From a virus, in the IMG/VR virus record IMGVR_UViG_3300031784_000226, positions 1 through 21,407 of that record: 21,407 nucleotides of DNA, one strand, 5' to 3'. The notes beneath the pieces are model-generated. The model was not told where the DNA came from. It ran no database searches and saw nothing but the letters and a program-made list of their open reading frames with translations. The position numbers and the translations under genes were made by a program. Positions 4,835 through 21,407 of the stretch are shown here, piece after piece; positions within the stretch are counted from its first letter, which is position 1, and every line of letters begins with the position of its first letter.

Positions 4835-4923
4835 GGGCGCGTGGTGTACGGTGCACAGGGACCATTATAAAGTCCTCTCCGGCAGATTACCGGCTAGTTA
4901 GGGTTCGACTCCCTACGCGCCTA
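4835..4923 (+). tRNA. Unusual class-II-like tRNA, isotype uncertain (anticodon TAT?)
   Basis: Acceptor GGGCGCG (4835-4841) pairs with CGCGCCT (4916-4922), one G-T; discriminator A4923. The T-arm is TAGGG, TTCGACT, CCCTA (4899-4915). The D-arm GTGT/GCAC has a loop of only five bases. A hairpin at 4858-4876 has loop CATTATAAA; with a C-A mismatch at 31-39 the seven-base loop gives anticodon TAT (4866-4868, Ile). A second hairpin, CCGG-CAGATTA-CCGG (4879-4893), would be a long variable arm, but class II tRNAs are Leu, Ser or Tyr. Alternatively the second hairpin is the anticodon arm (GAT) and the first is an insertion. Confidence 0.6.
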
Positions 4924-5013
4924 CTTAGTTTCAACTAGCCGAAAACTCGTTAAAGAACCCACACAAAGGCCATCTTCGGTGAACGACACAGGAGTGGCCC
5001 ACCACGGTGACAA

Positions 5014-7694: not shown

Positions 7695-7759
7695 GGCCGG
7701 TAAACCTCTTGTCCTTGGCCGGTTTCCCGCCTTGCCCTGGCGAGGGGAAACGGTATAAT
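7695..7759 (+). promoter_or_regulatory. Cassette promoter placed directly at the kinase start
   Basis: Two GGCCGGT motifs (7695-7701 and 7717-7723) precede -35 TTGCCC (7732-7737) and -10 TATAAT (7754-7759), 16 bp apart. CGGTT (7720) to -10 is 34 bp. The spacer holds CCCT/AGGG. The -10 box ends six bases before ATG 7766, so the transcript should begin at or next to the start codon. Confidence 0.8.
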
Positions 7760-7765
7760 GTAAGT

Positions 7766-8230
7766 ATGGAAAACAACCCTGAAGCATACGTGATGGTCGG
7801 TGCCCCTGGCTCCGGAAAGTCAACCCATGTGGCTAAGCTACTAGAGCTTCACCCAGATGCCGTTGTACTTTCCGGCGATGAAATTCGCGCTGAGCTCTAC
7901 GGAAACGCGGACATTCAAGGAAATTACGTAGAAATCCACGACCGTATGCTGGAGATTCTCGAAGAGAATGTGGGCCGGACTGTAGTCATGGATGGAACCC
8001 ACTACAGAGCAGCTTACCGCAAGGAAGCAGTTGCTATGCTAAACTCGTACGGTTACTGCAAAATCACCGCTGTTGTCCTTGACAAGCCCCTCGCCGTTTG
8101 CTTGCGGCAAAATGCTTCTCGCGAGCGCAGGGTCCCGGAAGAAGTGATTGAGCGCATGCACGCTTCCTTACAAGCTTCCCTCAAGAATATCACCAACGAA
8201 CCCTTCCACCGTATTGACTTCATATACTGA
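7766..8230 (+). CDS. P-loop polynucleotide-kinase-like protein
   Basis: 154 residues, starting right after its promoter. GAPGSGKST (12-20) is a Walker A motif. LSGDEIRAELYG (35-46) carries the Asp that acts on the 5'-hydroxyl in T4 polynucleotide kinase relatives, VVMDGTHY (73-80) is a typical second motif, and NASRERRVPEEVIERM (116-131) provides the Arg-rich lid. The family phosphorylates 5'-OH ends of DNA or RNA, or occasionally small molecules. The fused phosphatase domain of T4 Pnkp is absent, but a phosphatase of that type is encoded separately at 11633-12034 and a PPP phosphatase begins four bases downstream. Confidence 0.8.
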   Translation: MENNPEAYVMVGAPGSGKSTHVAKLLELHPDAVVLSGDEIRAELYGNADIQGNYVEIHDRMLEILEENVGRTVVMDGTHYRAAYRKEAVAMLNSYGYCKITAVVLDKPLAVCLRQNASRERRVPEEVIERMHASLQASLKNITNEPFHRIDFIY

Positions 8231-11372: not shown

Positions 11373-11636
11373 ATGAGCCATACTTCCGCGATTACACAGG
11401 TCTTTACACAGTGTGAAGGTGAAGAAATTCACCGTTCGGTGAGTCTCCCCAACTCAGACTGGCTCGTTTTAGCTCAGTGTGCCGAAGCCTTTTCCTCCAC
11501 CTTCAGGGCACAAGCGAGTCAGGTAATTGCCACTTATGTGACACGTGGACAGCTTGATTTGGCTGTGAGCGAGGCAGCGAAAATGAACATATTGCTTCAA
11601 AAACTAGACAGTATTTATATTGCCCTTGTGTCGTGA
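11373..11636 (+). CDS. Unknown protein, 87 aa
   Basis: The ATG at 11373 follows the preceding stop by three bases. The N-terminal third is polar (MSHTSAITQVFTQCEGEE). A run of helices follows (WLVLAQCAEAFSSTFRAQ, LDLAVSEAAKMNILLQKLDS), suggesting an all-helical soluble domain. No known motif. The stop overlaps the GTG of the HAD phosphatase gene (GTGA), so the two are probably translationally coupled. Confidence 0.6.
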   Translation: MSHTSAITQVFTQCEGEEIHRSVSLPNSDWLVLAQCAEAFSSTFRAQASQVIATYVTRGQLDLAVSEAAKMNILLQKLDSIYIALVS

Positions 11637-12034
11637 CACCTAAAAATAACCCCTTAGTAGTGTTTGACATTGATATGACACTTACGAGTGAGTGGTATTA
11701 CGAAGATAATGTTGCAACGCTTCGAGCCAATTTGCCACTCGTTCAACTTGCGGTATCTCTAGCTGTATCCGGTGTTACAATCCTTATATCCACTGCTCGC
11801 CCAAATCGTCTTCGAGCCGACTCAGAAAACTGGCTACAAAGTGTGGGAGTTAAGTTCGACGCCATATATATGAGGAAGGACGGGGACGATCGCCCCGACC
11901 ACTACGTTAAGACCGAGCAAGCTCTTGCAATTATTGAAGATTTCGGACGTCCTTCGCTTTGGTACGACGACAACCAAGACAACTGCAAAGTTGTGAGAGA
12001 ACTTGGGATTCCTTGCGTTCAGGTTATGCAATGA
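11633..12034 (+). CDS. HAD phosphatase resembling the 3'-phosphatase domain of T4 Pnkp
   Basis: 133 residues from GTG 11633. VVFDIDMTLTS (9-19) carries the HAD motif I DxDxT with nucleophile D12 and acid D14. ISTARPNR (52-59) is motif II. RKDGDDRPDHYVKTEQAL (81-98) matches the T4 Pnkp region before its conserved Lys (here K93), and LWYDDNQDN (109-117) supplies the motif III Asp pair. The line-up suggests removal of 3'-phosphates or 2',3'-cyclic phosphates from nucleic-acid ends. In T4 this domain is fused to the kinase; here the kinase-like gene lies about 3.4 kb upstream. Confidence 0.82.
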   Translation: MTPKNNPLVVFDIDMTLTSEWYYEDNVATLRANLPLVQLAVSLAVSGVTILISTARPNRLRADSENWLQSVGVKFDAIYMRKDGDDRPDHYVKTEQALAIIEDFGRPSLWYDDNQDNCKVVRELGIPCVQVMQ

Positions 12035-15352: not shown

Positions 15353-15958
15353 ATGGAACTAAAATCGACCCTTTCTGAGTCGTTCTTTCGCCGGTTCTGC
15401 CCAGATCCCACGGTGATGTACGATCTTGGAGAGATTTACGCAGAATTTAACATCCGCTACTTCAACGGGGACTTACCAATTCTTCCGTGTAAGATTCGGA
15501 CAGACGAAAACGGAGAAACTTGGTCGCGATATGACACTCTAAAGTGGGATGGTCGCATGGGTCGCAGAATCCTGGGCACATACAAAACGTCTGCACGGCG
15601 CGGGTTCGGAACCATTCGCCTCTCTCGCGTAATTGCAGGTGACCCTGTAAAAACAAGAAGCATTCTCCTGCACGAGATGCTTCACAAGTACCTTGATTTT
15701 GAGTGTCGAGACGACGGGATTAAGGGCCACGGTGAAAATTTCGTGAAGGAGGCAAAGAGAATCAACGAACTTTGTGAAAGAACCGGAGTTAAGCACCGCA
15801 TTCAATTCTACGACGAAGAGATCACACAGAGTTATCCGTTTGTTGTACCAGAGCTTCTGGGAGACAAAGTTCATTGCAGCAAAGACCTAGACATTGCTCG
15901 AAACATGCAGTCTGTGATGAGGGCCGCGTTCTCACAAAAATTCACGTACTTTCAATGA
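15353..15958 (+). CDS. SprT-like zinc metalloprotease
   Basis: 201 residues, starting right at its promoter. EFNIRYFNGDLPILPCKIR (31-49) is the typical SprT-family N-terminal signature. LLHEMLHKYLDFE (105-117) contains the zinc-binding HExxH, and IKGHGENFVKEAKRIN (123-138) supplies the third His in the usual GHG-x-F context. The family includes proteases acting on DNA-bound proteins. The C-terminal part lacks an obvious zinc ribbon, though one Cys (HCSKD) is present. Promoter, gene and strong terminator form a self-contained unit. Confidence 0.85.
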   Translation: MELKSTLSESFFRRFCPDPTVMYDLGEIYAEFNIRYFNGDLPILPCKIRTDENGETWSRYDTLKWDGRMGRRILGTYKTSARRGFGTIRLSRVIAGDPVKTRSILLHEMLHKYLDFECRDDGIKGHGENFVKEAKRINELCERTGVKHRIQFYDEEITQSYPFVVPELLGDKVHCSKDLDIARNMQSVMRAAFSQKFTYFQ

Positions 15959-16470: not shown

Positions 16471-17958
16471 ATGACTTTTGAGACAGAAAATTTAACGAAG
16501 GGTTCTAAAGCCGCTTCAACCGGAAATGAAAAATGCAACGATAACTGTTCAGTGAGTGAAGCCGTTGTCTGTGATTTACGCTCTCGCCAAGAGCCCCGCC
16601 GAATCGACCTCGACAAACTATACGAGTGCGACCCGAAAGAATACATTGGCTATTTCGCCGACGAAACCTCTTACGACAACCTTATTCAAGAAGACTGCGA
16701 CGTTTATGTGGGCGGAGTGAAAGTTGTTGCCTTTCGTAAGGCACTTTTTCCCAAGCTGCGCGATGGCTCGAAAGGTAGCCCGGAAACTTGGAAATACTTT
16801 CGCTGGGCAGCAAGAGATTTGTACTCAGATCAGCGAGGCCTAGTTGCTGGTAGAGAACTAACTACCCAACTCGAGATAAGGGTAACCAACGGTATTCTAA
16901 ACTTCTTCAAGAAGGCGATGGCCGGTCAAGTCACTGACGTGGAAGAGGCACTAAAAATTGCTTCTCTCTCTCCCGACATGTCAAAGCTCACTGTCCGAGT
17001 GAATGATGTTAAAAAGGACTTCCCAGAAATTGAGAAAGCTTTAGAACCTATCGAGAAGGAACTTCGCAAGAAAACGCTGAGCGAAGAAAGAAAGGTAGAG
17101 CTGAAGGAAGCGAAGGGTAGGGAACTTGCGAAGTGGTTCCCGACTTGGCTGTCTGAGACTTGGAGTGCATCTAAGGACAAGGTTTCTGAGGCGAAACGTG
17201 CCGACGACAGATACGTGGGAAAACAATACCGTTCAAACAAGTGCTATTCCAACGTGATTGGTGCTTTTGATAGGGGTGCACGTAACCCCTACGGTCGACT
17301 AACTGCAACTACCGTTCAAGATTACGAAGGGTTCGTCAGTCACACTGATATTTATCAAACCGCTTGTTCCGCACTCAAAGAGACCCTAAACACTCCTGAA
17401 AACCCTCGGTGGGACCGCCTTAACGAACGGTTCAGTAACGTGAAAGACCCGCACTACAACCTGTTCGGGACGGTATTCACTGCCCTAACGCTAAACTGGA
17501 ATTTCCGCTGTGCGATGCACTACGACGGAAATAACTGTGAAGGGGGTATCGCCGTTCTTACCGCAATTACTCAGGGCGAATATGACGGCCATTACCTTGT
17601 GTTCCCTGAGATCCGTTGCGCTTTTGACCTTCGCGACGGAGATTTCATTGCAGGCGACAACCAGGGCTTGATTCACGGCAACACCGCGATGATCCCGAAA
17701 ACTCCGGACGCTGAACGAGTGTCGTTCGTTTTCTATTCACGAGAGCGCATGACCGTTCTTGACGATCTGGAATGCGAGGAGTGCCGCCGTGACTTCATGA
17801 GATACGCGGCAGAAAACCACAAAGAATACGGAACGGGCCACAAGACCTGGAATGGTGTCTGGAGCGGAATGTGGAGATCACCGGAATGGATGTCGTATAA
17901 AGCCAAACACGGCATGGAACGTTGCTCAAACACCAACTACTGGGGAACTGAAAATTAA
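16471..17958 (+). CDS. TET/JBP-family 2OG-Fe(II) dioxygenase, paralogue 1
   Basis: 495 residues. The catalytic domain is C-terminal: FTALTLNWNFRCAMHYDGNN with H350 and D352, then GHYLVFPEIRCAFDLRDGDF, the distal His in LIHGN (H402) and the 2-oxoglutarate Arg in AERVSFVFYSR (R416). The last motif closely resembles RISLVFYQHK of TET enzymes. AFDRGARNPYGRL (265-277) is shared with the second paralogue. Residues about 150-215 form a charged helical insert, and DDLECEEC (431-438) may bind zinc. TET/JBP enzymes oxidise 5-methylcytosine or thymine in DNA; which base is used here is unknown. It has about 30 extra N-terminal residues relative to paralogue 2. Confidence 0.82.
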   Translation: MTFETENLTKGSKAASTGNEKCNDNCSVSEAVVCDLRSRQEPRRIDLDKLYECDPKEYIGYFADETSYDNLIQEDCDVYVGGVKVVAFRKALFPKLRDGSKGSPETWKYFRWAARDLYSDQRGLVAGRELTTQLEIRVTNGILNFFKKAMAGQVTDVEEALKIASLSPDMSKLTVRVNDVKKDFPEIEKALEPIEKELRKKTLSEERKVELKEAKGRELAKWFPTWLSETWSASKDKVSEAKRADDRYVGKQYRSNKCYSNVIGAFDRGARNPYGRLTATTVQDYEGFVSHTDIYQTACSALKETLNTPENPRWDRLNERFSNVKDPHYNLFGTVFTALTLNWNFRCAMHYDGNNCEGGIAVLTAITQGEYDGHYLVFPEIRCAFDLRDGDFIAGDNQGLIHGNTAMIPKTPDAERVSFVFYSRERMTVLDDLECEECRRDFMRYAAENHKEYGTGHKTWNGVWSGMWRSPEWMSYKAKHGMERCSNTNYWGTEN

Positions 17959-17973
17959 CCCCCGGTTACCAGG

Positions 17974-17999
17974 GCGGAGTAGATCCAGATTTACTCCGC
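17974..17999 (+). terminator. Terminator after the first dioxygenase gene
   Basis: GCGGAGTA (17974-17981) pairs perfectly with TACTCCGC (17992-17999) around a 10-nt loop, followed by TTTCG. The stem is strong and the T run is short. Confidence 0.65.
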
Positions 18000-18041
18000 T
18001 TTCGTCCAGCTACATTAGAACTGAAGTTTAATACGAGGAAT

Positions 18042-18345
18042 ATGTCAAACTTTGATGACCTTTTTGAAGCATTAGAGTCTTTTTTCATACGACTTGTCCA
18101 GGAGTTTAGACACTATACGTGATGAAATTGAAGGTCTCACGAGAGAATACGAGGAACTGCTTAACTTGCTACAAGTTTCTGACCATAAGTCAGCGGTAGA
18201 AGCAATTCTTAAGTTAAAATCGGACCCCTGGAAGTCCTCGACTACGGAGAAAATTAAGGGGGCCTTAGCAAAGGGAATCTCAAAAGCCATAGAAGCTGAG
18301 TTTCCTAAAGTCAAAACATTCCGTGACATCGCGGGCTTAATTTGA
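18042..18345 (+). CDS. Small helical protein with apparent +1 frameshift, about 100 aa
   Basis: ATG 18042 has a good Shine-Dalgarno sequence (CGAGGA) and opens MSNFDDLFEALESFF, but this frame stops at 18120-18122. The +1 frame, entered at a run of six T (18080-18085), continues without interruption to TGA 18345: SYDLSRSLDTIRDEIEGLTR, then a long charged helical protein ending FRDIAGLI. Joined, the two halves make a coherent helical protein of about 100 residues. Either one extra T broke the gene, or the T run allows programmed slippage, or the base is a sequencing error. Without the first part, a TTG at 18094 would start an 83-aa product with no Shine-Dalgarno sequence. Function unknown. Confidence 0.55.
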
Positions 18346-18376
18346 ACCTTTGAAGTCCTACCACATAATAACAAAC

Positions 18377-18658
18377 ATGACAACCGAACAACAAGCCCCC
18401 CAAACGACAATCTCAATTAATTTGCCGACAGACTTCGCCGAAGCTTTCAATTCTCTGGCAGAACTAGAAGGGTTGACTCAAGACGCTTTGGTCATGCGCT
18501 CTCTTGGCCTTTACTCAGTGGCATCACAAGCTGAGAAAGGAGGCTACGCTCTGTCGTTTACACGAATCGAAGGGACCAACGATCTGACCGCCAAGGAAGC
18601 AATTCGCATCGAAGATGAGCCCGAATCTAACTTGTTCATCCCCGGCAAGAGGCAATGA
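18377..18658 (+). CDS. Putative ribbon-helix-helix (CopG/Arc-like) protein
   Basis: 93 residues from ATG 18377 (AACAAACATG context). TTISINLPTDFAEAFNSLAE (11-30) followed by LEGLTQDALVMRSLGLYSVA has the strand-helix-helix layout of ribbon-helix-helix DNA-binding proteins, where the strand contacts DNA and the second helix starts at the Thr of GLTQDAL. The rest (GGYALSFTRIEG, acidic tail) could bind a partner. The stop overlaps the ATG of the second dioxygenase gene (ATGA at 18655), so the two are made together. A regulator of the dioxygenase or of its DNA targeting is an inference. Confidence 0.6.
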   Translation: MTTEQQAPQTTISINLPTDFAEAFNSLAELEGLTQDALVMRSLGLYSVASQAEKGGYALSFTRIEGTNDLTAKEAIRIEDEPESNLFIPGKRQ

Positions 18659-20142
18659 CTCGAGAAGCAATAGCGAAAGAATTGCAGTCTAGAGCTAAAC
18701 CTTTGCGGATTGATAGGGAAACCCTTGAAAACTGCCCTCGCAGTGAATACATTGGGCAATTTCCGGTACCCACTGACTATGATCGGGTTATCGATGAAGA
18801 CTGTGACGTTTACGTCTCTGGAGTGAAAGTTATTTCTTTCAGGAAAAACCTCTTCCCCATTCTTTCTGACGGGTCTTCCAAACATAAGGAAACTTGGGAC
18901 TTTTTCCGAGCAGCTTCTAGAGAAGTTTACGGAACACAGAGAGGTGTTGTCGCAGGCACAGAGTTTACAACTCGCCCAGAGTCTCGTTTAACTAAGGGGC
19001 AAGTTGCTTTCTTCGCCGGTGCTTCAGTAGGCTTGACTGCAACGCTTGCCCAAGCGCGAGAGGCTCTAGAAAGCTCGTGTAAACTTACCAGCAAGACACT
19101 CAAGATCAAGTACATAAAGAAAGACTACCCCGAACTCGCGGAAAGAATGAAGCCCTTAGAGGCAGAGATTCGCACCCTAAACCCCAACGACCCGAAACTA
19201 GAAAGTCTGAGGAACCAAAGAAGAGAGCAACTTTGGAGTTGGTTTGAACCCTGGCTGCTGGAAGTTTGGCTGCCCTCGGAAAACAAAGTAGAAGAAGTTA
19301 AAAAAGTTTTAAACACTTATATTAGTTCTCAGTTAAATTTCAACCATTGCTACAGTAACGTCCTGGGGGCAATTGACCGTGGGGCAAGATTCCCCTATGG
19401 TCGTTTGAGCGGAACCACTCAGAGATACTACGAGCAGTTCTCAAAATACAGAGACATTTATTACGCGGCCTGCGAAGGTTTTAGGTACAATTTTCCGGAT
19501 ACTTGGAGCAAAGTTAAGGAAGTAATTTCAAGGGCTAAAGACCCTAACTACAACTTGTTCGGCACTGCCTTTACGAGCGTAACTCTAAACTTCAATTTCA
19601 AGACTGCCTACCACGTTGACAAGAACAACTTGAAAGGGAGTATGGCCGTCTTAACTGCTTTTACAAAAGGTGTTTATGAAGGCCACTACTTGGTGTTTCC
19701 CGAAGTTAAGCTAGCTTTCAACCTGAGAGACGGGGACTTTATCGTAGGGGACACTCAAGTCCTACTTCATGGTAACAGCCCCATGACAAAACTTACTGAA
19801 GACGCTGAGCGGGTTTCTCTGGTTTTCTACTCACGAGAGAACATGACCCGATTGGACGATCTTGAGTGCGAAGAATGCCGAAAACAGTTCATGAAGTTTT
19901 CACTTCAGTCTCTGAAAGAACGGGGCAAAGATCATAAAGATTGGAGAGGTGTTTGGCAAGGTATGTGGACTTCTCAAGAATGGCTAGACTTTAGAAAAGA
20001 AAGAAACTTGGAACACTGTTCAAACTCTAATTGGCAGCTTTCCTCGCCGTACGAGAACGAAGTTACTAAAGAGGTGAAGTTGTTCAAGGATGATCCAGGC
20101 GAAGGGTGGAAACTCGTACAAGTGTTTACACAAGATCGGTAA
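18655..20142 (+). CDS. TET/JBP-family 2OG-Fe(II) dioxygenase, paralogue 2
   Basis: 495 residues, translationally coupled to the ribbon-helix-helix gene. Catalytic residues are H320 and D322 (FKTAYHVDKNN), H372 (LLHGNSPM) and R386 (AERVSLVFYSREN, even closer to the TET motif than paralogue 1). Shared blocks with paralogue 1 run along the whole chain: EDCDVYVSGVKV near the start, AIDRGARFPYGRL, KDPNYNLFGT, GHYLVFPE, DDLECEEC and HCSNSN. It lacks the 30-residue N-terminal extension of paralogue 1 but has about 35 extra C-terminal residues (LSSPYENEVTKEVKLFKDDP and on). All metal and co-substrate residues are intact, so both copies look active. Substrate unknown. Confidence 0.82.
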   Translation: MTREAIAKELQSRAKPLRIDRETLENCPRSEYIGQFPVPTDYDRVIDEDCDVYVSGVKVISFRKNLFPILSDGSSKHKETWDFFRAASREVYGTQRGVVAGTEFTTRPESRLTKGQVAFFAGASVGLTATLAQAREALESSCKLTSKTLKIKYIKKDYPELAERMKPLEAEIRTLNPNDPKLESLRNQRREQLWSWFEPWLLEVWLPSENKVEEVKKVLNTYISSQLNFNHCYSNVLGAIDRGARFPYGRLSGTTQRYYEQFSKYRDIYYAACEGFRYNFPDTWSKVKEVISRAKDPNYNLFGTAFTSVTLNFNFKTAYHVDKNNLKGSMAVLTAFTKGVYEGHYLVFPEVKLAFNLRDGDFIVGDTQVLLHGNSPMTKLTEDAERVSLVFYSRENMTRLDDLECEECRKQFMKFSLQSLKERGKDHKDWRGVWQGMWTSQEWLDFRKERNLEHCSNSNWQLSSPYENEVTKEVKLFKDDPGEGWKLVQVFTQDR

Positions 20143-20203: not shown

Positions 20204-20800
20204 ATGGAAATCTATTTCAGCACAGACGTTGAGACCGACGGACCGATCCCCGGACCTAACAGCATGCTTTCGCTTGGGTCAGCTGCGTTTTCTCCTAAAG
20301 GAGAACTCTTGGGCACCTTCTCTGTGAACCTGGAGACCCTACCCGGAGCCGAGCCGGACCCCACTACCCAAGCGTGGTGGGAGGCCCACCCAAAGGCTTA
20401 CAGAGCCTCTCGGGAGCATACCTGGAGCCCGGACCAAGCCATGTTGCTCTTCTCGGGTTGGGTTGACCAGACCGTGAAAGCTAACAGTAACCAAGGTTCA
20501 GGTGGTCGGAAAGCCTTGCCCGTATTCGTGGGTTTTCCTGCAGGGTTTGACTTTCTTTTCGTGTATTGGTACCTCATTCGATTTACCGGGAAGTCCCCAT
20601 TTAGCTTCTCGGCTCTTGACGGTAAGACCTATGCTATGGCCTTGCTCAAAAGAGGATACCGGGAGTCCACCAAACGGAACTACCCAAAGGAGTGGTTTCC
20701 ACTCGAAAACAAGCACACTCACATCGCTGTGGATGATGCCATCGAGCAAGGTCGTATTTTCTGCAATATGCTTCGACCCAATCTCAACATCCTATCTTAG
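20204..20800 (+). CDS. DnaQ-like DEDDh 3'-5' exonuclease
   Basis: 198 residues, starting right at its promoter. [11 protein letters not shown] (4-13 region) is exo motif I with D8 and E10. [17 protein letters not shown] (108-124) is motif II with D116, and [16 protein letters not shown] (171-186) is motif III with H173 and D178, the HxxxxD form of DEDDh enzymes. The family removes nucleotides from 3' ends of DNA or RNA, as in polymerase proofreading, RNase T and oligoribonuclease. No polymerase domain is attached. The stop overlaps the start of the next gene. Confidence 0.85.
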
Positions 20801-20979: not shown

Positions 20980-20991
20980 TTGCCCACCGTG

Positions 20992-21407
20992 ATGAAAAAT
21001 CCTACTTTCCTACTCCAGTCCGGAGGACCACTACAAATCGAAAAGGTTGCGTGTAGTTTCTCCTGTTACCCCGTTCGATATTGCTCGTTTGATGATCTGT
21101 CGAAGTTAGACCCTAAAGGTTTCATGGCTACATTAATTCCTGTGGGATCGGTGGAATTTGTTCAAGCTTACAGTGAACACGCAGGTATTGTGCTACCTGA
21201 AGACTTTTCTTACGGGTACGGTGAGGAACTGGAAAAGTACCTCATGAGAGCCATTCGACAAGGGTCGTACGGTGAAGCTACCCCTGAAGAGTTTGTGAAG
21301 CCGACCACAATAAAGTTGTTTACCGGGGACATTAAAGGAGGTCTCGAACTGAAGTCACCTGGACTAATTTCCGATAACACTTCAGTGTGGATCTCTCAGG
21401 CTGTGCC
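20992..21407 (+). CDS. Probable R2K-type ATP-grasp protein (partial, N-terminal part)
   Basis: The frame from ATG 20992 stays open for 138 codons to the end of the window. It has FMATLIPVGSVEFVQAYSEH (49-68), then a linker with a Tyr/Gly-rich loop, and EEFVKPTTIKLFTGDIKGG with a later SVWISQAV. The PVGSVEFV and FVKP-x-x-x-KLFTG elements are typical of phage ATP-grasp proteins of the R2K group (DUF4343), which couple ATP use to ligation of a carboxylate to an amine. The ATP- and metal-binding C-terminal part lies outside the window, so the call rests on half a domain. Confidence 0.55.
   Translation, partial: MKNPTFLLQSGGPLQIEKVACSFSCYPVRYCSFDDLSKLDPKGFMATLIPVGSVEFVQAYSEHAGIVLPEDFSYGYGEELEKYLMRAIRQGSYGEATPEEFVKPTTIKLFTGDIKGGLELKSPGLISDNTSVWISQAV

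Follow-up and report, generated by a model that had tools for sequence, protein, structure and literature searches.

Two dioxygenase genes of the TET/JBP family in a viral contig

The stretch of DNA analysed here, called the window, is IMG/VR record IMGVR_UViG_3300031784_000226 (positions 1-21,407; linear, 21.4 kb), and the linear viral record together with its phage-type genes indicates indirectly that it derives from a phage. On the plus strand it carries genes for two Fe(II)/2-oxoglutarate dioxygenases of the TET/JBP family, P1 (16471..17958) and its old paralogue P2 (18655..20142). A preliminary description made from the sequence alone had proposed two complete TET/JBP paralogues of 495 aa, and this was borne out: both proteins have that length, both exceed the curated cut-off of 34.9 bits for PF12851 (Tet_JBP) with 51.2 bits for P1 and 66.3 bits for P2, both models have TET folds, and BLASTP aligns the two at 49% identity over 461 columns (P1 30-490 with P2 4-460, E 3e-170). 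The iron triad HxD...H and the 2-oxoglutarate-binding arginine lie exactly at the numbers first given (H350/D352/H402/R416 in P1 and H320/D322/H372/R386 in P2), and we infer that both enzymes are catalytically competent. The motif RVSLVFYSR, which had been likened to TET2 (RISLVFYQHK, as seen in the profile alignment), is that of P2, whereas P1 reads RVSFVFYSR. The genes had further been described as standing side by side; they are close and on the same strand, but 696 bases with a small open frame separate them. The terminal extensions pointed out as a sign of functional divergence do exist (~26 additional N-terminal residues in P1 and ~30 additional C-terminal residues in P2), but they are a weak sign of it, since that of P1 is disordered in the model (pLDDT <50 for residues 1-19) and varies among copy-1 orthologues, being shorter in L010 and L080_a.

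AlphaFold2 models built from 46-row alignments reached a mean pLDDT of 90.5 (P1) and 92.1 (P2) and contain a TET-type double-stranded beta-helix (P1 against TET2 4nm6, Z 19.8, rmsd 4.0, 265 aligned; P2 against 7ne3, Z 19.9, rmsd 4.1, 263 aligned). When both models were searched with VIA-align 2, the top 16 PDB entries were all TET2, CcTet, NgTET1 or CMD1, with Z of 17.0-19.8 for P1 and 16.5-19.9 for P2, followed by ALKBH3 at 13.3 and 13.4, respectively. Foldseek returned TET enzymes in all of the best 26 rows for P1, and among viral models it ranked gp8 of Synechococcus phage S-CBWM1 first for P2. JBP structures were not among the fold matches listed, which we did not count against JBP, and no J-DNA-binding domain was found in P1 or P2 among Pfam matches with an E of 1 or less. 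Searching the PDB with the single P2 sequence gave a chance match only, and a profile search reached TET2 weakly (E 0.006). P1 and P2 belong to the TET/JBP family, which we regard as practically certain: in the profile search proposed earlier as a check both lie over the cut-off, and their folds are well clear of other 2-oxoglutarate oxygenases. Their suspected action on DNA is supported by these folds and by the gene surroundings, and they are very probably DNA hydroxylases that serve hypermodification.

A viral scan confirmed at least 514 stretches that match the TET clade. In bacterial and archaeal genomes, none of 128 pattern matches from a scan with the TET alignment encodes a relative, although such a two-pattern scan does not prove absence. 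Public annotations of proteins that match these TETs read 'queuine tRNA-ribosyltransferase' or 'SNF2 DNA repair protein' and involve PHROG 6059, MementoMori NC_047987, S-CBWM1 gp8, DLP_6 and Cr30.

The neighbouring genes are likewise on the plus strand. A gene for a SprT-like protein (15353..15958; PF10263, 1.1e-9) lies slightly upstream of P1, a position that is conserved among relatives (upstream of P2 in G021). Between P1 and P2, a small open frame of 102 aa (18350..18658) overlaps the ATG of P2 with its stop by 4 bases; neither it nor the small frame at 18094-18345 had a Pfam match over the cut-off, and the label 'ribbon-helix-helix' considered for the former is unsupported. P2 is followed by a gene for a 3'-5' exonuclease-like protein of 198 aa (20204..20800; PHROG 255, 6.3e-7; PF16473, 3.3e-5, below cut-off) and by the first part of an ATP-grasp gene (R2K clade, amide/peptide ligase-like; 20980..21407), the rest of which lies beyond the window end. 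By itself this partial frame gave no match in a Pfam search; it is 89% identical to the full-length gene of the relative G004, which matches PF14243 at 2.7e-19.

An old gene pair with an optional second copy

We counted PF12851 in 49 TET-bearing records that were picked by similarity to P1 or P2, so that a match in 49/49 is given by construction; in two of them, Margaery and Altadena, it lies below the cut-off. Two TET genes near each other occur in 10 of the 49 (the window, G001-G005, G008, G016, G019 and G020), and no record has more. Nine of these ten hold the P1/P2 pair; G001 matches the window at 100% identity in P1 as well as in P2, and G002/G004 and G019/G020 seem near-identical, so that independent cases are fewer than records. 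The exception is G016, a 249-kb viral contig whose two TETs are each other's sisters (support 100/99) and hence stem from an independent duplication (L018 9347-10711 and 12472-13881; L060); it also has a gene for an amino acid:DNA transferase (ADDT) and, elsewhere, a C5-methyltransferase.

Because the P2 orthologues of several phages (the window, G004, G021 and G019, with fragments of G003, G005 and G008 in one tree) form a fully supported clade (100/100) and P1 groups elsewhere, the duplication is, judged from these trees, an old one. The first TET of G019 is grouped with P1, as is, with weak support, S-CBWM1 gp8 (82/51 and 79/84 in two trees); a constraint that holds P1 and P2 together against S-CBWM1 was not rejected (approximately unbiased test, p 0.164), and the split of the two copies may be older or younger than the branching of S-CBWM1. 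A recent duplication within the window's phage is ruled out by the P2 clade and by the grouping of P1 with the P1 of other phages, which is what the tree of phage TETs suggested in the preliminary description returned. In a sister TET clade (L011, L012, L013, L014, L017, L086, L088 and L090), Ser or Cys replaces the 2-oxoglutarate-binding Arg while the H-D-H triad is intact; there, either a different residue anchors 2-oxoglutarate or the chemistry is different.

P1 occurs without P2 in seven records for which both flanks were read (G006, G007, G018, G037, G038, G039 and the complete S-CBWM1), and the P1 contigs 3300042303 and 3300008113 end too early to score P2. In the first six of the seven, the order P1, small frame, exonuclease and ATP-grasp is unchanged and P2 is cleanly absent; the small frame thus occurs in P2-less relatives as well, and the exonuclease-like gene, which is 3' of P2 in the window, is there 3' of P1 and the small frame. 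P2 without P1 was found only in G021, a 65-kb fragment. Several P2 copies are altered: residues ~13-106 are replaced by unrelated sequence in G003, a one-base change in G005 yields two frames with an ATGA overlap (L007 10001-11487), and G008 has two one-base changes. The split P2 of G005 may be a pseudogene, encode an enzyme of two chains or reflect a sequencing error.

Synonymous divergence was compared between the window, G004, G006 and G038 on the one hand and G003, G005 and G008 on the other (G006 and G038 lack P2). Between these groups it amounted to 1.73-2.72 for P1, ran from 1.80 to saturation for SprT, was saturated in the ATP-grasp part and came to 0.99-1.60 in the exonuclease gene, but to just 0.35-0.72 in P2. 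Recombination probably moved P2 between lineages, perhaps repeatedly, while most of its neighbours were not exchanged, and the P2 of the window's lineage was probably received from the sister lineage. Constraint instead of exchange is a less likely cause of the low P2 values, as the divergence between the window and G004 is larger for P2 (0.56) than for P1 (0.30). Because the small frame of the window is closer to that of G008 in the amidotransferase/ADDT group (86% nucleotide identity, its nearest match) than to those of the window's near relatives (60-64%), it seems to have moved together with P2.

Tailoring genes near the TET genes

As far as the contigs reach, a TET-associated glycosyltransferase (TAGT) module lies downstream in G002, G004, G006, G007, G018, G037-G039 and S-CBWM1. 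In G004 the TAGT gene is followed by genes for an EcbF-like phosphatase and a sugar nucleotidyltransferase-like protein (both below cut-off) and for an APH-type kinase-like protein; in the other contigs the module genes were assigned by BLAST. An alternative module in G003, G005, G019 and G020 encodes a glutamine amidotransferase (GATase_6), one or two amidoligase-like proteins (PF12224 at 0.0027, below cut-off, in 1/3 scanned), ADDT and Ploopntkinase3, and of these G008 shows just the genes for the amidotransferase and the amidoligase-like proteins. Both module types have an ATP-grasp gene of the R2K clade on their 5' side, S-CBWM1 being the exception.

TAGT (PF20691) was over the cut-off in 14/44 records, 13 of which carry it downstream of the TET at a distance of up to ~2.5 kb and one of which, DLP_6, has it ~3 kb upstream; ADDT (PF18724) and Ploopntkinase3 (PF18751) were over theirs in 20/44 and 21/44 records, respectively. 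None of the 11 TAGT-bearing records searched for both had ADDT, and Cr30 combines ADDT with a sub-threshold TAGT. Neither ADDT nor the DNA kinase had a match in the window, G001, G002, G004, G006 or G007, and both are present in the P1- and P2-bearing records G003, G005, G019 and G020. At 91 TET loci, where genes within 4.5 kb were clustered and the clusters named from one scanned representative each, we counted the ADDT cluster at 46, the amidotransferase cluster at 39, the kinase cluster at 31, glycosyltransferase group 1 at 14 and a cluster with only sub-threshold glycosyltransferase matches at 30. A cluster whose representative matches inositol-1-phosphate synthase also occurs near TETs, often together with ADDT (L011-L014, L017, L022, L100, L102-L104, L146, L149; Cr30), which makes an inositol-derived DNA decoration conceivable.

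The window stops short of its own tailoring genes and gave no TAGT match up to its end; in G002, G004, G006 and G038 the gene is found after the ATP-grasp gene. The window shares 90-95% nucleotide identity with G002, G004 and G006 over the common downstream part and 91% with G038 in the ATP-grasp part, and by synteny with these near relatives we infer that its own module is of the TAGT type. Taken by gene content, the surroundings indicate DNA hypermodification. P2 was present in 5/5 amidotransferase/ADDT contigs and in 2/9 TAGT contigs (Fisher p 0.021), a test to which we give little weight: the contigs are related (G002/G004, G006/G007 and G019/G020 are near-identical by look and G037-G039 are closely related), G008 was placed in the former group for its amidotransferase and amidoligase-like genes, with ADDT not found in it, and three of the five P2 copies in the former group are damaged.

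Proposed pathway and its substrate

We propose that, once the phage DNA has been replicated, P1 and P2 add a hydroxyl to the 5-methyl group of one of its pyrimidines and most likely convert thymine to 5-hydroxymethyluracil (hmU), a product as made by JBP in kinetoplastids. The hydroxymethyl group would serve as a tailoring handle, which would be glycosylated by TAGT in the window's nearest relatives and, in the sister lineage, phosphorylated and joined to an amino acid; the added groups would shield the viral DNA. P1 would be the resident enzyme and P2 the old paralogue, probably acquired from that sister lineage, and the two together would widen the set of modified sites (by flanking sequence, strand or expression time) instead of being obligate partners or oxidising in two steps. 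To this explanation as a whole we assign a probability of about 0.48. A broader version, which we put forward as tentative, is that cyanophage-like viruses contain base-J-like DNA: a thymine-hydroxylating pair would act with neither a methyltransferase nor a dUMP hydroxymethylase, tailoring would be interchangeable between glycosylation by TAGT and amino-acid or amide attachment (kinase, ADDT, amidotransferase, amidoligase and ATP-grasp), and a second TET exchanged between glycosylating and aminoacylating lineages would add target sites.

Because C5-cytosine methyltransferase (PF00145) and thymidylate-synthase-type (PF00303) domains are nearly absent among the TET records, thymine is the likeliest substrate, and we favour it slightly over all others combined. 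PF00145 was detected in 2/49 TET-bearing records (Melnitz and G016), while 10/14 control genomes were positive, so the search works; it was absent from the window, its P1/P2-bearing relatives, the 277-, 201- and 190-kb relatives and the records of S-CBWM1, DLP_6, Cr30 and C48C1, all four described as complete. PF00303 was found in 1/29 records (Cr30). From these searches, the usual phage route of cytosine methylation followed by oxidation seems to be absent. According to the available parts of the respective papers, hmdUMP of phage PhiW-14 is made by a phage synthase (PMC5977210), such hydroxymethylpyrimidines are products of thymidylate-synthase-domain enzymes (PMC8670742), and a DNA kinase and transferases then act on them (PMC6449724). 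A TET acting on thymine after replication would take the place of that synthase.

Several points weigh against the proposed explanation. The known phage TET pathway acts on 5-methylcytosine (5mC), so thymine would be contrary to precedent, and we know of no member of this TET clade whose chemistry is established. Pocket residues fail to separate thymine from cytosine enzymes: the residue at +8 from the 2-oxoglutarate Arg, His in TET2, is Arg in 18/24 and Lys in 3/24 phage rows, Asp in Melnitz, which has a methyltransferase, and Leu and Ile in Margaery and Altadena, both of them also without PF00145. By eye, pocket sequence and downstream module are unrelated (modules labelled for 37/46 rows). 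TAGT is over the cut-off in 1/14 control genomes too. Most TET records are fragments, so that a missing methyltransferase could lie elsewhere, and a host methyltransferase could supply 5mC. Moreover, an annotated 'DNA methyltransferase' two genes after the TET of P12024L and an annotated 'FkbM family methyltransferase' directly after that of HTVC112P are beyond the coverage of PF00145; because these genes adjoin TETs, we lowered our estimate for thymine.

The best-surviving rival builds on several of these points and holds that both P1 and P2 oxidise 5mC, supplied by the host or by an unseen phage methyltransferase, and that the resulting 5-hydroxymethylcytosine (hmC) is then glycosylated. TAGT genes do lie near the TET in the window's nearest relatives, PF00145 accompanies the TET in Melnitz and G016, the methyltransferases just mentioned stand beside two distant TETs, and the structural neighbours TET2, NgTET1 and CcTet are, by their structure titles, 5mC enzymes. 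The absence of PF00145 from 47/49 records, the four complete ones included, speaks against it, as does the consideration that host methylation would probably provide sparse 5mC only. The same TET clade is also linked to ADDT and the P-loop kinase, which we take to be thymidine hypermodification families. The TAGTs described in the available parts of PMC13216743 and PMC13390438 act on modified cytosine and use hmC derivatives, which favours the rival. On balance we consider oxidation of 5mC possible and somewhat doubtful.

Role of the second copy

A division of labour in which P1 and P2 act on the same base at different sites or times is the role that we ascribe to the pair, though with less than even confidence. 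No result obtained here points to a difference in site preference between P1 and P2, and with damage to P2 in 3/7 distinct P2 contigs this copy may be dispensable or decaying; both count against such a division.

The preliminary description had also suggested different bases for P1 and P2. That one takes thymine and the other a cytosine with a methyl group or another modification, or that they work on distinct oxidation states, is unlikely, and the hints in favour are indirect. Fixed differences between the copies, seen in four orthologues of each, do adjoin the HxD motif that binds iron and the distal His (HxDxNNCEG and DNQ in P1, HVDKNNLK and DTQ in P2), and G016 has its independent tandem TET pair together with a C5-methyltransferase. 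However, the key pocket positions are identical in both copies (an Asn three positions beyond the Asp, and a Tyr and an Arg at +6 and +8 from the 2-oxoglutarate Arg), PF00145 was not found in records with P1 and P2, and each TET type occurs alone.

A little less probable again is P2 as a redundant passenger, which would have come by exchange, be retained by chance or for dosage and often disappear. The seven P1 relatives without P2, the truncated or frameshifted copies in three contigs and the exchange between lineages would fit a passenger, but P2 has a low dN/dS (0.046-0.092 in 10 pairs), keeps all catalytic residues and forms a clade maintained across phages that are ~61-63% identical; its frameshifts, each a change of one base in a metagenome contig, may stem from sequencing errors. 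For P1, dN/dS was 0.047-0.074 in 14/15 pairs and 0.218 in one, ratios that are rough in the 9/15 pairs with a synonymous divergence >1.7, which tempers the argument from selection. By these ratios, P1 and P2 are both under purifying selection.

Since either copy is found without the other, neither an obligate heterodimer nor an obligate relay is likely; a heterodimer and successive oxidation steps had both been raised in the preliminary description, and each is weakened by P1 alone in seven records, one of them the complete S-CBWM1, and P2 alone in one 65-kb fragment. An action of P1 and P2 on RNA, protein or a small molecule is most improbable: the wider 2-oxoglutarate oxygenase superfamily includes such enzymes, and P2 matches PHROG 6059, labelled queuine tRNA-ribosyltransferase, but this label looks like a misannotation, the TET folds are clear of other 2-oxoglutarate oxygenases, and the linked genes belong to DNA-modification families.

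Comparison with known systems

The TET/JBP family and TAGT are already known, as is the idea of TET-primed phage hypermodification; Iyer and co-workers are said to have predicted in 2013 that hydroxymethylpyrimidines generated by TET/JBP are starting points of phage hypermodification. Thymine-oxidising TET/JBP enzymes are known from kinetoplastids, and published phage TETs are reported to act on 5mC. A phage pathway of TET, C5-methyltransferase and glycosyltransferase was reportedly presented by Burke et al. in PNAS in 2021. The pathway of this type in the available part of PMC12730594 resembles the present system in combining a TET with a close TAGT gene (here in the window's relatives), and it is unlike the present records in that 47/49 of these lack PF00145 and 10/49 have two near TET paralogues. 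The TETs are also longer here, with 495 aa compared to 288-345 aa for the frames of P12024L, HTVC112P and Melnitz.

Base J of kinetoplastids, made by JBP1/JBP2 and the J-glucosyltransferase (as far as described in part of PMC10276184), shares with the present system the TET/JBP family, two dioxygenases per genome, a glycosyltransferase as the second step and, presumably, hydroxylation without prior cytosine methylation. Here, in contrast, no J-DNA-binding domain was among the Pfam matches, the genes form a viral cluster and thymine is a putative substrate. Thymidine hypermodification in phages M6, ViI and PhiW-14 (PMC6449724, PMC5977210, parts available) likewise starts from a hydroxymethyl handle and uses the ADDT and P-loop DNA kinase families that we found in the sister lineages, whereas the TET would make hmU in DNA after replication and no dUMP hydroxymethylase would be needed (PF00303 in 1/29 records). 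For the ATP-grasp and amidoligase-like genes, a plausible parallel is amide-ligase tailoring in the amide-handle hypermodification of cyanophage S-B43 by CmoX/CmoY; that system differs in using a carboxymethyltransferase, and the available part of that report (PMC12783734) does not mention a TET. S-CBWM1 gp8, annotated 'putative SNF2 DNA repair protein', is 59% identical to P1; this phage resembles the window group in its SprT-like gene upstream and its TAGT, phosphatase, nucleotidyltransferase and kinase genes downstream, and differs from the window in having a single TET and no ATP-grasp gene in the usual place.

In titles and abstract openings of the open-licence papers listed by our literature searches, we found neither thymine oxidation by a phage TET nor paired phage TETs. 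As far as that literature shows, what is new is the conserved pairing of the paralogues, the exchange that they underwent and the coupling of a TET clade, mostly without PF00145, to glycosyl or aminoacyl modules. This large viral clade would, if the proposed pathway is true, place base-J-type chemistry in phages and yield new enzymes with which hmU could be written and decorated. As P2 is optional and exchanged, there are natural genotypes with P1 only, P2 only or both, which makes the question of why there are two directly testable, and a route to the substrate is open in S-CBWM1, a named phage of the strain Synechococcus CBW1002.

Further features of the window and its relatives

In G004, a 277-kb relative, the gene order of the window is missing upstream of P1, where few long plus-strand frames are present (L006 1-6100); a rearrangement or an assembly join is possible. 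Separate genes in the window for a P-loop kinase (AAA_33, 7709-8230) and a PNKP-type phosphatase (11633-12034) resemble a split polynucleotide kinase/phosphatase. Between genes for tRNA-Arg and tRNA-Ser, a tRNA-Ile (tat) is predicted at 4835-4924 of the window; with 90 bases, it is apparently long for such a tRNA.

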